Shown one piece after another: positions 54,431-63,845 of a DNA stretch of 64,000 bases. Position 1 is the first letter of the stretch, and every line of letters begins with the position of its first letter. Below the pieces are notes generated by a model. The model was not told where the DNA came from and made no database searches. It saw only the letters and a program-made list of their open reading frames with translations. Origin of the DNA: Sphingomonas bacterium (lineage in GTDB: Bacteria > Pseudomonadota > Alphaproteobacteria > Sphingomonadales > Sphingomonadaceae); assembly GCF_028293085.1 (NCBI RefSeq), contig NZ_JAQGLC010000186.1, forward strand, positions 1-64,000, given 5' to 3'. The position numbers were made by a program, and so were the translations under genes.

Positions 54431-55975
54431 TCAGGCCAGCGGCACCGAAAAACGGAAATGCGCGCCACCGCTCCCGCTTTCCTCCAGCCAGATCGCGCCG
54501 TCATGCGCGTCGATGATGGTCCGGCAGATCGACAGGCCGATCCCCATGCCGTCCGGCTTGGTCGAATCGGCCCATTCGAACAGTGAGCCGGCGATGTCGG
54601 GCGCGACGCCCGCCCCGTTATCCCGGACCGAGACGATCGCCCGATCCTCCTTCACGAGGGTCGAGATCGTGACGCGGCCATCGCCCCGGCCGGCCGCCGC
54701 CTCGCAGCCATTGCGTATCAGGTTCATGATCACCTGCTGGATCTGGATGCGATCGGCATCGATCATCGTGCTGTCGCGGCTCAGGTCCGCGATCAATACG
54801 CGCTCGCACGCGCCGACGCGCATCAGCGCCACCGTTTCGCGCACGGCGTCCCTGAGGTCGAACAGCTCGCGGGCAGGCTTTGCCCGTTTCGTCATGTCCT
54901 TCAGCCGGCGGATGATCTCGCATGCCCGCCTGGCGCTGTCGCTGACGTCGCTCAGAATCCCCGCGACCGGCTCGGTGCCGGCGCCATCGGCCTCGATCAG
55001 ATGGCGGCCGACCGCCACATGGTTGGAGATCGCGGTCAGCGGCTGGGTCAGCTCGTGCGCCAGGGTCGCGGCCATCGTGCCCATCGCACTCACCCGGGCG
55101 AGGTGGATCACCTCGGCCTGCAGCGTCCGCACCTGGTCGGCCGCCTGTTTCTGCGCGGATACGTCATGCCCCTCGCAGAAGATTCCGGTTATCACGCCGT
55201 CCGGGGCCCGGATCGCCTGATAGATGAAGTCGATGAAGCGCAGCTCCCCGTCCTGGCCGGTCTCGCGTTGCAGCTCGACCGGGACGCACTCGCCGGTGAA
55301 AGGCTGTCCCGACCGATAGACCCTGTCGAGCACAGCGATGAAGCCTTGCGCCACCAGTTCGGGCATCGCCTCGGCGACGGACTCGCCCAGGATGCCGCGA
55401 TTGCCGACCAGTTGCTGATACGCATCATTGGCGAAACTGAAGCGATGCTCCGGGCCCTCCGTCGTCGCGATGAAATCGGGCGTATGCTGATAGAGCGCGT
55501 GCAGCGCATCCCGCTCCCGGCGGACTCGCTCGATATGACCGCTGAGGTCGACGAACGACGCGCAGTGCTGGACGATTTTTCCCTGCCGGTCCCGGACCGG
55601 GTTGATCCGGACGGCGACCAGGAAGGGCCGCCCGTCGCGACGCCGGCACTCGACCTCGATCGTCTCGGTCGCTTCCTCCTCGAACTGCGCCTCGATCCGC
55701 GCGAGCGCGTCGGGATCGGCGACCCGCGCCATCAGGAAGCCGAACGACTGCCCGACCACCTCGTCCTGCGCGAAGCCGGTCAGTGCCAGAAAGCTGTCAT
55801 TGGCGAAGATGATCGGGTTGCCCGGCTCGGTCGCGTTGGTGAAGGTCATCGCCATCCGCGTCATCTCGGCGGCCACGACGAAGGGCCCCAGCGCGCGTCG
55901 GAACCTGTCGACTTCCCGCTCCGCGCGTTCCTGTCCGGCGTCGTCATGCAGACTGGAACGCTTTGACTCGATCAT
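54431..55975 (-). CDS. PAS-domain sensor histidine kinase
   Basis: Two PAS-like regions (PIIFANDSFLALTGFAQDEVVGQ); MGTMAATLAHELTQPLTAISNHVAVGRHLIE; GMGIGLSICRTIIDAHDGAIW. Confidence 0.93.
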   Translation of the reverse strand: MIESKRSSLHDDAGQERAEREVDRFRRALGPFVVAAEMTRMAMTFTNATEPGNPIIFANDSFLALTGFAQDEVVGQSFGFLMARVADPDALARIEAQFEEEATETIEVECRRRDGRPFLVAVRINPVRDRQGKIVQHCASFVDLSGHIERVRRERDALHALYQHTPDFIATTEGPEHRFSFANDAYQQLVGNRGILGESVAEAMPELVAQGFIAVLDRVYRSGQPFTGECVPVELQRETGQDGELRFIDFIYQAIRAPDGVITGIFCEGHDVSAQKQAADQVRTLQAEVIHLARVSAMGTMAATLAHELTQPLTAISNHVAVGRHLIEADGAGTEPVAGILSDVSDSARRACEIIRRLKDMTKRAKPARELFDLRDAVRETVALMRVGACERVLIADLSRDSTMIDADRIQIQQVIMNLIRNGCEAAAGRGDGRVTISTLVKEDRAIVSVRDNGAGVAPDIAGSLFEWADSTKPDGMGIGLSICRTIIDAHDGAIWLEESGSGGAHFRFSVPLA

Positions 55976-57603: not shown

Positions 57604-58201
57604 AGTTGAGTCCAATATGCCGAAGGCGGTCCATTACGGCCCGCTGATTCAATCCCCGCCCACCCCGGCATAGCATGCCTCTCCGGTGTCCCATGCCGGA
57701 TGAATCGGGGGTGCCGAGCCATGACAGCAGAGAAACCGGAGCCTCAAACAGGCGGGAGAAGAGCGCCAGTCGCGGCGATCGATTCTCGAAAATGCGCAAG
57801 AACATATCAAATGGCGCGCCGGCATGATTTCGCCGGTCCGTTCTTCGCTCGCCGCGCATCCGGCCGGCGAATAGCCAGGCGCCCGCAAAAGCTGGAAGTA
57901 ACCCGACAAAAATTCCGGGTCGACGTGGCCTGGCAAAAATCCGTCATTACTGTCGGGTTTCCCACCCCTTCCAACACCATTACTTGGCGCCCGCCAGAGC
58001 GCTCCCGCACCCCGAATCCAGGAGATACAACCGAACCCGAAACCAATCCCGCCCGGGCAAAACCGCTTTCCCCAAATAATCGCGGCACTTACCGGAACTG
58101 TCACCATTTTCGCTGCAATTTCAGTCGATTGACGGCGATTCACTGGCCGTGGAATAGCACCTCATCCGCAGCATTCACCTGCCCACGGAGAGGGAAACAT
58201 C

Positions 58202-60292
58202 ATGCATCTCACCCATGAAAGCGGCGCCTTGTCGGCCCGCGCCAGCAGCTTCGTCGAAACCGATATCCGCACCGTGCGCTGGATCGCGCAGGCGGCGATC
58301 AACGTCGAGCTGTTCACCATCCCGCTCTACATGACCACGCTCTATTCGATCGAGGGCTTCCACCCGATCACCGGCAAGAACAATGATTTCTACAAGGGCC
58401 GCCAATGGCCCGGCGCCAAGGCCAGCGCCTTTCCGGATGTGGATCCGTCGCAGCCGGGCTGGGGCAACAAGCGCGCCTTCAACATCATCTTCTCGGTCTT
58501 CATCCAGGAGATGCTGCATCTCCAGATGGCCGCCAATATCGCCACCGCGATCGGCTGCACCCCCAGCTTCACCGATACCGCGCTGCAGAACCCGGACAAT
58601 GGCTGGACCTGCTACGGCCCGACGCTCACCACCATCCCCGACATCGTCGATCTGCGCGACACCTCGACCTATACCGATGTGAAGGTCAATGTCGGCCCGC
58701 TCGACGAGGATATTATCCAGCTCTTCCTCGCGATCGAGCAGCCGCAGGACGATGCCGAGCGCGACATCGTGCGCAACAAGGAGAAATATTTCCCCAAGGT
58801 CCCGTTCGACGGCGGCAATCCCGATTACGATCCCGCCACCGCGGGCATCATGTTCGGCTCGATCGGCTATATGTACCAATGCTACCGCGATTATCTGCAG
58901 ATCCGCTATGACGACGGCACGTGCCTGTGGGATCATGTCTTCGATCAGAACGGGCAGCAGAATGATCTGTTCAACAGCTTCAGCTTCCCCGGCCATCCGA
59001 TGCGCGAATATATGGGCGTCGAGACGACCGTCGCGCTGACCGACAAGCATATCGCTTTCAAGCAGGCGCTCAACATGATGAACGCCATCACCGATCAGGG
59101 CGAGGGCGCGACGCTCAAGGCCCGCCTCAAGCTCGCCAACGAGGCCGGGCTGCTTCAGGCGGTCGAGGTCCGCTATCGCTCCGACAAGGACGCGCTCGAA
59201 TCGGATTATCCGAGCTATTCGGATACCGGCGCGCAGGTCCCCTCGGGCGATGCCGCCGCACGCTACGACAATGACGGCGAGGACCATTTCGAGCGCTTCA
59301 AGGAAGTGCGCCAGCTGATGGTCGATGGCGGCATCGTCACCTGGGACAAAGCGGGCAAGGCCGGCAACTGGACCGCGGCCGATCTCACCACGGCGGCCTA
59401 TGATCCGAACGACAACCCATACGGCCTGCCCACGCCCGACCAGATCGCGACCGCGCTCAACAATCTCTATGCCGAGCCGGTCCGCGCGCAGAGCCACACT
59501 ACCCTGAGCCAGGCCGTGGTCGGCTCGATCAAGGGCGTGACGACGGTGCTCGACCAGTACTGGAACCCGGGCAGCAGCGCGGTGTCCTTCCCGTTCCCGT
59601 CCATGTCGGGCTCGGGCGACCGCATGGCGACGGCCTGGGCGGCGATGGCGATGACGCCGGATCTCAGCCAGGGGCTCCCCGCGCCCAACACGCACATCGT
59701 CAACCACACCTGCCAGGGGCTGGATCTCTATGCGGAGGGCGGCCCGGGCACCAACAGCTGCGCGCTGACCACGGTCTACCACACCTGCCGCGGCTCGAAT
59801 CTGTGCAAGGGCATGGGCGGCTGCGGGTTCGTCCAGCCGAGCGGGGGCGGCGGCAATTGCAGCTCCAGCGTCCGCACCACGCCCGCCGAGCCGACCCCGG
59901 GCAAGCCCCAGGGCGGCGGCTGCTCCGCGGTCGGCGTGCGGGCCAAGGGCGGCCTGTGCGGCACCCCGACGCCCACGCCCGGCGGCACCACCTATACCGC
60001 GCCCAGCGACAATCGTTGCGGCGGTTTCGGCGGCTGCGCGGTGCCGATCTCGGCCTGCCAGATCTACCCGGTCAGCGGGACGATGGAGGTGCTGCAGCTC
60101 TCCGCCGCCCATGGCTGCGGCAAATATCCACCCACCCCGATCGATCCGCCGCTGCCGTTCAAGAAGGGCGACCGGGTCGAGGATATCGCCTTCCAGGCCT
60201 TCACCCAGGTCGCGAAGCATATCGGCATGAAGCCGCCCGCCACGCCGCCCCCGCCGAACGACATCCGCCTCGCCTTCCCGCCCTCGACCTGA
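58202..60292 (+). CDS. ferritin-like domain protein (VioB/iminophenyl-pyruvate dimer synthase-like) with Cys-rich C-terminal tail; candidate MNIO substrate
   Basis: [53 protein letters not shown]; tail with 12 Cys between codons 504 and 639 including CKGMGGC and CGGFGGC. Confidence 0.85.
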
Positions 60293-60299
60293 GGAACAT

Positions 60300-61187
60300 A
60301 TGAGCTACCGGTCCATCCCGTCCCCCATCCCCCCAAGGATCGGCCTCCCCGATCCGGGGGACGGGGTGGGCCTGCGCGAGGAACATTATCCGCATTTGAT
60401 GCGCACCCCGCCCGCCGCCTGGGGCGTGGACTGGTTCGAGGTCATTTCGGAAAATTACCTCGATAATGAGGGATATGGCATGCGCGTGCTCGAGCATGTC
60501 GCCGCGCACCGCCCGATCGTGATGCACGGCGTGTCGCTCTCGATCGGCAGCACGGCGCCACTCGACATGGGCTACCTGGCGAAGCTCAAGGCGCTCGCCG
60601 CGCGCGTCTCGCCTTTGTGGATCTCGGACCATCTCTGCTGGACCGGCATAGGCGGCCTCAACAGCCACGATCTCCTGCCCATGCCGCTCACCGAGGAAAG
60701 CCTCGCCCACACCGCGACCCGCGTCCGCGCGGTGCAGGATTATCTCGGCCGCCCGATCGTGCTGGAGAATCCCAGCACCTATCTCGCCTTCCAGTCGAGC
60801 CGCATGCCCGAATGGGAATTCATCGCCCGCCTCGCCGAGGACACGGGCTGCGGCCTGCTGCTCGACGTCAACAATGTCCATGTCAGCGCGGTGAACCAGG
60901 GTTTCGATCCGCTAGTCTATATCGACGCCATCCCCGCGAACCATGTCGTCCAGATCCACCTCGCCGGCCCGAGCGATCACGGCACGCACCTGATCGACAC
61001 GCATGATCATCCTGTCCCCGACGAAGTCTGGCCGCTCTACGCGCGGGCGTGGGAGCGTTGCGGCCCCGTCGCGACCCTGCTCGAATGGGACGCGAGCATC
61101 CCGCCCTTCGACGAATTGCTAGCCGAACTCGCCAAGGCGAAGACGGTGCGCGAGGCGCTGAACGCCGATGCGAAGGTCGCCGCCTGA
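60300..61187 (+). CDS. DUF692 family multinuclear non-heme iron oxidase (MNIO; MbnB/BufB-like)
   Basis: [94 protein letters not shown]. Confidence 0.95.
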
Positions 61188-61969
61188 TGGCCGGCCTCGC
61201 CGATCTCCAGTCCTGGCTCCAGGCCGCGATGTTCGACGGCGCGGCAGAGGATCCGCGCGAGTACGTTCTCGGCGACAACCGCCTGACCGCGGAAATGCGC
61301 CTCGGCATCTACGCCCAGGGCTATCGGCTGCGCCTGCTCGAATGCCTCGGCATCGAATATCCGGTGCTGTCCGCGCTCGCCGGCCCGACCGCCTTCGGCC
61401 TGTTCGCGCAGGGCTATATCGCCGCGCACCCGTCGCGTTCCTACACCCTCTACGATTTCGGCGCGGGCTTCCCCGATTATCTGGAACAGGCCCGCCCCGC
61501 CGGCGACGGCACGCCGCACACGGTCGAGGCGATCCCCGCCGCGCTCGCCCGGATCGAGCGCGCCCGCGCCGAGGTCCAGCGCGCCCGCGGCGTGGAAGGG
61601 GAGGCGCCCGTCGCCACCGAAACCGGCTTCGATCCGGTCATGGCCTCGATCCTCGGCCTGGGCCTGGGCCGGGCATATTGGCGGCCGGACAGCGTGCAGC
61701 TGCTCGATCTGCCCTTCGACTTCACCGAAACCCTCGCCGCCTTCGACCGCGGCGAACCGCCGATCCTGCCGCGGCCCGAGCATTGCTTCGTCGCGGTCTC
61801 GCGCATGAACTACCGGGTGGAATGCCACCGGCTCGACGGCTGGCAATATGACTGGCTGGCAAGCCTGCCCACCCTGCCGGCCGAAGCACATCCGTCGCCC
61901 ACCGATCCCGGTCTGGCGGCCTGGCTGCCCTTCGCCACGGCGCACGGGCTGATCGCGCCGCTCGCCTGA
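61187..61969 (+). CDS. DUF2063 family protein (putative MNIO partner, BufC/HvfC-like)
   Basis: LADLQSWLQAAMFDG...LGDNRLTAEMRLGIYAQGYRLRLLECLGIEYPVLSALAGPTAFGLFAQGYIAAHPSRSYTLYDFGAGFPDYL; TGATG overlap with the MNIO gene. Confidence 0.92.
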   Translation: MAGLADLQSWLQAAMFDGAAEDPREYVLGDNRLTAEMRLGIYAQGYRLRLLECLGIEYPVLSALAGPTAFGLFAQGYIAAHPSRSYTLYDFGAGFPDYLEQARPAGDGTPHTVEAIPAALARIERARAEVQRARGVEGEAPVATETGFDPVMASILGLGLGRAYWRPDSVQLLDLPFDFTETLAAFDRGEPPILPRPEHCFVAVSRMNYRVECHRLDGWQYDWLASLPTLPAEAHPSPTDPGLAAWLPFATAHGLIAPLA

Positions 61970-62265: not shown

Positions 62266-62724
62266 ATGACACGCACGACCTATATCGTGGATGACGACGA
62301 CGGCGTCCGCAACGCCCTGCAGGGGCTGCTGGAGCTTCAGCCGGATCAGGACATTCGAAGCTTCGGCAGTGGCGAGTCTTTCCTTGCGGCGGCGGGCACG
62401 CTCGATCCCGGCGTGCTGCTGCTCGATCTCAACATGCCGGGCCTAGGTGGTCTCGACGTGATCGAGTTGCTTGAGGCATCGCATCCGCAGAAGTTCGCGG
62501 TGCTGATCCTGTCCGGCACGGCCTTTGCGTCGAGCGGCCTCGCCGCCAAGACGCGTGGCGTGTTCGCGTTCATCGACAAGCCTTGTGCGACCGATGCGCT
62601 ACTGGACGCTGTCGACGCGGCCTCCGCCACGCTGGTGCAAAAGGGCGCCGTCGCCACGAATGTCGAGGGGCAGAGACGGGCTCGGCGCATCCGAGTCGCC
62701 CGACGGCAATGCCTGGCCGCATGA
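62266..62724 (+). CDS. FixJ-type receiver-domain response regulator (no recognizable output domain)
   Basis: TYIVDDDDGVRNALQGLLELQ, GVLLLDLNMPGLGGLDVIELL, ILSGT, FIDKP. Confidence 0.92.
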   Translation: MTRTTYIVDDDDGVRNALQGLLELQPDQDIRSFGSGESFLAAAGTLDPGVLLLDLNMPGLGGLDVIELLEASHPQKFAVLILSGTAFASSGLAAKTRGVFAFIDKPCATDALLDAVDAASATLVQKGAVATNVEGQRRARRIRVARRQCLAA

Positions 62725-62762: not shown

Positions 62763-63845
62763 TCAGGCGTCCTTCGGTGCGGCGTCCGATCGTGCGAAGA
62801 AGATCGTGACGCGGACCCCCGCGCCCGGCGCGGATTCGACTGCGACCTGCGCCTTGGCGTTCTGCCGCAGCGACTGGACGATCAGCGCGCCGAGCTTGCC
62901 GGCTTTGGGCCAGGTAACGCCCTCCGCCAGCCCGATCCCGTCATCCGCGACGACGACGCGGCATCCCGTCTCGTCGACGATGCTGTGCAGGCTGATCGTC
63001 CCGCCGTCGCGCCCGGCAAAGGCATGCTTCAGCGCGTTGGTCAGCAGCTCGTTGACGACCAGCCCCGTCGGCATCGCGACATTGACCGAGACCGGCCAGG
63101 TATCGACCTGAAGATCGAGATGGATCCCCTCCACCGCATGCGCGCGCATTACGGACGACGCGATCTCGCTCAGATAGATGCCGAGATCGATGCTCTCGCT
63201 CACCCCCTCCTCGGAAAGCGACCGGTAGAGCAGCGCCAGCGCATCGATCCGCCCGGCCAGCCGATCGAAGCGCTTGCCCGTCGCATCGTCGGGGATATTG
63301 CGCGCCTCGAGCCGGATCAGCGCCGTGATCATCTGCAGGTTGTTCTTCACCCGGTGCTGCAATTCGCGCAGCAGCGTATCGCTGTCCGTCCGCCGCTCCC
63401 GGTCGATGCCGTCGCCCGGCGTGCGCTGCCCGGCCTCGGCAAGCGCGACCAGCCGGAACAGAGGCGTCCCGTCTTCGTCCTGGATGACGTTCGACCAGGC
63501 ATCGACGGTCATCTCCGTCGCATCATGCGCGATCGTGAAGCTGCCGATATATTCATCGCCGCCGGTCACCGCCTCGCTCAGCGCGCGGCCGTCGGCGGAG
63601 GTCGCGGTACCGGGCAGCGCATCCCAGCGCTTGCCCGCGATCGACGCCGACGGCTGGGCGGTCAGCCGTTCGAATTCGATGTTGGCGTAGGTGATGCACT
63701 CGCTCGGCTGCAGCTCGGCGACGGCGATCGCCACCGGTACATGGTCGAGGAACTGCTTGAACAGGTCGCTCTCCAGCGAGATCGCGAGATCGGGCGCGTC
63801 GAGAATCTGCCCGATCTGCCGGGAGTTCTCACTGTCCTCGCTCAT
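62763..63845 (-). CDS. PAS sensor histidine kinase of HWE/HisKA_2 type
   Basis: LLRELQHRVKNNLQMITALIRLEARN; VNELLTNALKHAFAGRDGGTISLH; VVVADDGIGLAEGV. Confidence 0.93.
   Translation of the reverse strand: MSEDSENSRQIGQILDAPDLAISLESDLFKQFLDHVPVAIAVAELQPSECITYANIEFERLTAQPSASIAGKRWDALPGTATSADGRALSEAVTGGDEYIGSFTIAHDATEMTVDAWSNVIQDEDGTPLFRLVALAEAGQRTPGDGIDRERRTDSDTLLRELQHRVKNNLQMITALIRLEARNIPDDATGKRFDRLAGRIDALALLYRSLSEEGVSESIDLGIYLSEIASSVMRAHAVEGIHLDLQVDTWPVSVNVAMPTGLVVNELLTNALKHAFAGRDGGTISLHSIVDETGCRVVVADDGIGLAEGVTWPKAGKLGALIVQSLRQNAKAQVAVESAPGAGVRVTIFFARSDAAPKDA

Follow-up and report, generated by a model that had tools for sequence, protein, structure and literature searches.

A conserved gene trio links a ferritin-like protein with a cysteine-rich segment to an MNIO enzyme and its DUF2063 partner

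Known MNIO systems

MNIO enzymes are known for producing modified peptides, most of which are exported metallophores. In bufferin and captophorin cassettes (bufABC; the BufA2, BufA1 [DUF2282], oxazolin HvfABC, and fontiphorin types), the genes stand in the order substrate, MNIO, and type 1 partner (PME1), which is also the order at the locus described here. Installation of 5-thiooxazole is reported to be widespread among MNIO-PME1 pairs, with the resulting products reported to bind copper (PMC13097082). PMC12452194 describes PME type 1 partners as going with precursors that carry a Sec signal peptide, suggests that these partners cover the signal peptide, and raises the possibility that MNIOs act as protein modifiers. 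Both MNIO-PME1 cassettes and bufferins fused to other domains are already known.

Organization of the locus

The window, i.e., the whole 64,000-nucleotide stretch of Sphingomonas DNA analyzed here, contains three genes on the forward strand whose positions were read directly in the sequence. These encode a ferritin-like protein with an internal Cys-rich segment (58202 to 60292; 696 amino acids [aa]), which is the proposed MNIO substrate; an MNIO (formerly DUF692) of the BufB class (60300 to 61187; 295 aa; PF05114 and NF050167); and a DUF2063 plus RRE-like partner of PME type 1 (61187 to 61969; 260 aa; PF09836). Reading of the sequence also revealed a clear Shine-Dalgarno-like element, GGAGAGGGAA, on the same strand (58187 to 58196), 5' of the ATG of the ferritin-like gene at 58202. 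A 7-bp gap (60293 to 60299) separates the stop codon of this gene from the MNIO ATG, and the MNIO and DUF2063 genes overlap by 1 base within TGATG (61185 to 61189). The initial annotation of this DNA had described the three same-strand genes, the gap, and the overlap correctly, and its family assignments were confirmed by Pfam profiles, with DUF692 (PF05114), DUF2063 (PF09836), and the ferritin-like domain (PF12902) all scoring above their cutoffs.

It had also seen no small bufferin-like precursor gene nearby, and our scan of both strands from 55 to 64 kb agreed: every frame recovered either lay antisense to another frame or overlapped one. No members of the Buf1 (DUF2282) or BufA2 families were found in the genome of the window, which has a single MNIO. 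A SigF-type bufferin promoter was not found upstream of the trio; about 300 bp upstream of 58202 there is a GTAACC followed, some 16 bp on, by a near miss of a SigF-type -10 element. Within the trio set, 7 upstream regions contained a loose ECF-like pattern, versus 2.6 expected. Judged by eye, the frames flanking the trio resemble a response regulator (62266 to 62724, forward strand) and PAS-type sensor histidine kinases (62763 to 63845 and 54431 to 55975, both reverse strand).

Conservation and distribution of the trio

Homologous loci were collected by scanning genome contigs with an alignment, and the best 80 of 156 by score were compared; weaker relatives were sampled through other searches only. 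The reading in the initial annotation turned on whether homologous ferritin-like genes keep the same neighbors, and among the best 80 of 156 loci they do: the MNIO gene lies directly downstream in all 78 loci that are uncut by a contig end, and the DUF2063 gene comes next in all 77 that could be assessed. Recurrence of this order in 78 of 78 loci excludes a chance arrangement, and the spacing of the genes, based on heuristic start sites in the same loci, is mostly that of coupled genes. Mirror-tree correlations ranged from 0.68 to 0.83. The three genes make up a genuine, conserved system.

The best 80 of 156 loci span the Pseudomonadota, Bacteroidota, Actinomycetota, Acidobacteriota, and Ignavibacteria, with genera including Sphingomonas, Caulobacter, Chromobacterium, Janthinobacterium, Massilia, Undibacterium, Dyella, Vibrio, Mucilaginibacter, Chitinophaga, Saccharothrix, Actinophytocola, Sulfidibacter, and others, as well as one Ignavibacteria genome. 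The ferritin-like protein was present in 5 of 301 genomes order-wide (that of the window included; 2 of the 5 belong to the same genus as the window, one of these 2 being Sphingomonas caeni) and its family in 2 of 399 genomes phylum-wide (again including that of the window). Because the family is this sparse across genomes, the trio probably spreads horizontally. When a plasmid collection was queried with the full-length protein, only unannotated Pseudoalteromonas sequences matched; cyanobacterial and rhizobial PF12902 matches in this collection span the ferritin part only, and both of those inspected have GMC-oxidoreductase neighbors. A large plasmid of Pseudoalteromonas piscicida, a 1.3-Mb secondary replicon, carries a 36%-identical trio member (locus L139, 6001 to 8235), and its MNIO groups inside the trio clade.

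Among frames of at least 80 aa in the best 80 of 156 loci, no further gene was kept beside the trio beyond near relatives. Specifically, these loci revealed neither a conserved copper or stress gene nor a conserved protease or exporter gene adjoining the trio.

The ferritin-like protein

The window protein matched PF12902 at 85.6 bits (cutoff, 22.3) over residues 30 to 305 (58289 to 59116, forward strand). In the 81 proteins compared (the window plus the best 80 of 156 loci), residues E36, E103xxH106, E179, E301, and H362, the last of which sits just past the PF12902 domain, were kept in 80 or 81, a pattern consistent with a putative di-metal site. The homologues from the best 80 of 156 loci nearly all aligned end to end. 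An AlphaFold2 (AF2) monomer model of the 696-aa protein had a pTM of 0.86, with residues 1 to 490 (the ferritin-like domain) well predicted (most blocks above 90), and the nearest solved fold was 3HL1 from Caulobacter (Foldseek E = 5e-9, probability 1.00). The protein had been described as ferritin-like/VioB-like; the window protein did not match TIGR04492 (the VioB-type iminophenyl-pyruvate dimer synthase) and so is not a VioB by model, and its kinship to VioB holds at the PF12902 level only. This model was grazed by just 1 of 50 homologues (E = 0.0058).

A simple hydropathy test detected no signal peptide or hydrophobic leader in any of the 81 trio proteins, in line with what had been noted for the window protein. 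Outside the Cys-rich segment, the body residues C137 (80 of 81) and C227 (75 of 81) are nearly invariant and may be metal ligands or a redox pair.

The Cys-rich segment and C-terminal module

The Cys-rich segment, which is the proposed modified core, covers approximately residues 500 to 620 (59699 to 60061, forward strand). It is followed by a C-terminal module of a beta hairpin and helices (residues 621 to 696; 60062 to 60289, forward strand), which ends in RLAFPPST and is possibly a recognition or packing element. The initial annotation had thus counted the 12 Cys of this region correctly but had placed them in a C-terminal tail, whereas the region is internal. Among the 81 proteins (the window plus the best 80 of 156 loci), C504, C529, C535, C541, C606, and C612 are invariant, and C520 (79 of 81), C553 (74 of 81), and C586 (71 of 81) are nearly so; the spacings C520-x8-C529-x5-C535-x5-C541 and C606-x5-C612 are fixed throughout the alignment, the H-x-C pairs H502/C504 and H527/C529 are invariant, and 78 of 81 proteins end in an RLA.PPST-type motif. 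The segment consensus includes HxCQG...CAxxxxxHTCRGSNxCKAxGGCGFVQ...GGGxC. AF2 confidence was low for the segment (pLDDT mostly under 60) and moderate for the C-terminal module (mostly 56 to 82). A segment that is conserved yet apparently unfolded fits a core recognized by a modifying enzyme.

By model match, the segment belongs to neither the BufA2 nor the DUF2282 family. The BufA2 model scored 11.8 bits against the window protein, below its cutoff of 60, and the DUF2282 model passed neither for the segment nor anywhere in a genome-wide search of the window's genome. An hhalign comparison of the segment with BufA2 gave a probability of 56% (E = 1e-4); because 7 to 14% of Cys-preserving shuffles attained the real mean score, homology is unproven, descent from BufA2 was not accepted, and we claim only a shared Cys spacing. 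A segment-only search of 349 genomes did not recover the segment on any other kind of protein.

The MNIO enzyme and DUF2063 partner

The window MNIO scored 354 bits against PF05114 (cutoff, 25) and 357.4 bits against the NCBIfam BufB model NF050167 (cutoff, 310). Ten residues (H76, D110, H111, E156, D189, H220, D233, H235, E262, and D264) were invariant in all 82 trio MNIOs and, D264 included, are likely metal-binding or catalytic. In the tree, the 82 trio MNIOs formed one clade with modest support (0.645), nested in a group that holds the BufA2 and EGKCG/oxazolin maturases. The MNIO of the divergent locus L135 (see below) joined this clade (support, 0.90), followed by that of locus L146, whose neighbor is a small frame that contains Cys and begins like a signal peptide.

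The residue that follows the catalytic Asp has been reported to govern substrate choice in FonB/BufB2 (PMC13097082). This residue is Ala in 79 of 82 trio MNIOs, Asp in 17 of 18 BufA2 maturases, and Phe in both sampled EGKCG maturases, where the mapping of the selectivity site onto the trio MNIOs rests on matching D-F and D-D patterns. Ala at this site marks a separate substrate class among enzymes whose characterized members make 5-thiooxazole.

The window DUF2063 protein scored 65.3 bits against PF09836 (cutoff, 27.2), and the domain was present in 42 of 42 partner homologues. Its AF2 model had a pLDDT of 91, and the best PDB folds were those of TglI (8HI7) and NGO1945 (3DEE), both established partners of MNIOs, with MbnC at lower confidence. 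Because the 81 trio substrates lack a signal peptide by hydropathy, the trio is, on that test, a clear exception to the rule linking PME type 1 partners to signal peptides.

Presence of the segment and of an adjacent MNIO

Homologues that lack the segment serve as natural controls. In genome G065, a homologue that is 48% identical over the aligned body stops at the segment boundary (locus L007, 1339 to 2634), and there is no MNIO beside it; the only MNIO of this genome is on another contig and adjoins a BufA2-like gene. None of seven further segment-less PF12902 proteins in a phylum-wide sample has an adjacent MNIO, and most of their genomes are without any MNIO. Conversely, a highly divergent PF12902 protein (locus L135, 2562 to 6540; genome G394, contig C10), which the trio profile recognizes weakly, abuts MNIO and DUF2063 genes and carries its own Cys-rich segment, with 21 Cys in its open frame. 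This segment scored 20.9 bits against the trio segment model, compared with at best 9.8 among 500 Cys-preserving shuffles. The L135 locus suggests that trios of this sort form a superfamily extending beyond the set scanned. Taken together, the eight segment-less cases and L135 indicate that, in this sample, an adjacent MNIO occurs where the segment does and is missing where the segment is missing. The proposal of the initial annotation that the Cys-rich part of the ferritin-like protein replaces a small precursor as candidate MNIO substrate gains support from this pattern and from the co-occurrence described above.

Proposed function and alternative explanations

We consider it likely, from comparative evidence throughout, that the trio is a self-contained protein-modification cassette in which the segment Cys would be converted to thiooxazole in a protein with a built-in metal site. 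The ferritin-like protein would be made and folded in the cytosol, as supported by the lack of a signal peptide and the folded domain modeled for residues 1 to 490, and its Cys segment would be the substrate of the adjoining MNIO, with the DUF2063/RRE partner as guide. The natural controls, the strictness of the co-occurrence, and the specificity of the MNIO clade all point to the segment as the substrate, and its modification by this pair is the step that we regard as highly probable. The MNIO would then probably turn several conserved Cys, chiefly those of the C529/C535/C541 and C606/C612 sets, into 5-thiooxazoles; this product is a reasonable though less secure expectation, by analogy, because the characterized relatives BufB, HvfB, and FonB make it.

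In an alternative account, the segment would be a carrier-borne RiPP precursor, from which the modified Cys peptide would be excised to serve as a free metallophore, with the ferritin-like domain as its carrier or scaffold. A flexible segment between two folded parts does look like a cleavable core, and the literature leaves open whether related products are cleaved (PMC13097082), but the best 80 of 156 loci conserve no protease or exporter gene with the trio, the C-terminal module beyond the segment is itself strongly conserved, and the invariance of the putative ferritin metal-site residues suggests that this domain is more than a carrier, so that we hold this account to be improbable. It is similarly unlikely that the segment Cys bind a metal or an iron-sulfur cluster unmodified while the MNIO and DUF2063 proteins act on a body residue or on a peptide encoded elsewhere. 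The invariant H502/C504 and H527/C529 pairs could indeed ligate a metal directly, and the conserved body residues Cys137 and Cys227 offer other targets; however, related MNIOs modify Cys in just such low-complexity Gly/Cys sequence, the segment comes and goes with the adjacent MNIO, and no other precursor was found nearby, nor one of the Buf1 or BufA2 type in the genome.

PF12902 is common to VioB-type dimer synthases. Together with the single homologue that touches TIGR04492, this would fit a VioB/RebD-type enzyme that tailors another peptide or a small molecule with the MNIO as co-tailoring enzyme. We give this explanation very little weight, as the VioB model does not match the window protein, the best 80 of 156 loci keep no additional biosynthetic gene beside the trio, and the invariant Cys segment would be left unexplained.

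Returning to modification of the segment within the ferritin-like protein, we speculate that the segment, once modified and flanked by the ferritin-like domain on one side and the C-terminal module on the other, binds a soft metal beside the E/ExxH metal site of that domain, with Cu(I) as the most likely candidate. Binding of copper, or of a different soft metal, near that site is tentative, falling somewhat short of an even chance. Slightly more doubtful is the bolder idea that the segment thiooxazoles form a copper or soft-metal center working with the ferritin-like di-metal site, which would make this the first metalloenzyme to be matured by an MNIO, as opposed to a metallophore peptide. 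The least certain step is physiological: the protein might act as a cytosolic metal handler or metal-dependent oxidase under metal or oxidative stress, a role that we rate below metal binding itself. Because the best 80 of 156 loci show no conserved copper or stress neighbor and no SigF-type promoter was found, the choice of metal and the physiological role are both guesswork.

The only candidate substrate in this strictly conserved, multi-phylum cassette is a folded cytosolic ferritin-like protein. If the proposal is true, such a substrate would extend MNIO chemistry to protein maturation, as has been suggested for MNIOs before. The departure from the published association of PME type 1 partners with signal-peptide precursors also provides a clean system in which to ask what the DUF2063-RRE partner recognizes, and as the trio is compact and seems to be soluble, the claim is directly testable.

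Comparison with known systems

A search of main texts in the open-access literature found no ferritin-like MNIO substrate and no paper pairing MNIO/DUF692 with a ferritin-like protein or PF12902, although a bare listing in the supplements of PMC12452194 is possible; the main text of that paper makes no mention of ferritin. The locus shares with bufferin and captophorin pathways the intact MNIO residues, the PME type 1 (DUF2063-RRE) partner, and a Cys-rich gene directly before the MNIO gene. Its MNIO scores above the BufB cutoff and falls in the same larger group, and its substrate resembles BufA2 in having C-x5-C spacings. In contrast to those systems, the trio substrate is a cytosolic ferritin-like protein of roughly 610 to 780 aa without a signal peptide, its segment does not pass the BufA2 or DUF2282 model, Ala occupies the selectivity site of its MNIO, and no DoxX or sigma-factor neighbors are conserved. 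Because a Sec signal peptide and a BufA2 or DUF2282 model match are features of bufferins proper and the trio substrate shows neither, we class the trio with the MNIO-PME1 kind and not as a bufferin.

The protein is a PF12902 member by a domain above the gathering score and by its ferritin-like fold. It shares this fold and the ELxTIP, EMLHxQ, and DQGEG motifs with CC_0557 of Caulobacter (3HL1) and other PF12902 proteins, but the solved chain of CC_0557 (317 aa) is too short for the Cys segment, and the sampled segment-less PF12902 genes, unlike the trio, have no adjacent MNIO. Fusion bufferins (Buf1-cytochrome c-FGE, MerC-Buf, and Buf_EGKCG-EF-hand; PMC12452194) likewise join a Cys-rich bufferin-like part to another domain, but they have recognized bufferin domains and are exported or membrane bound, with the bufferin part in the periplasm, which is not so for the trio. 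TIGR04222 proteins also are large, lack a signal peptide, and have unstructured C-proximal Cys-rich segments beside MNIO genes; these, however, are membrane proteins associated with PME type 2 whose co-occurrence is unsystematic, whereas the trio protein is apparently soluble, is paired with PME type 1, and co-occurs strictly with its MNIO.
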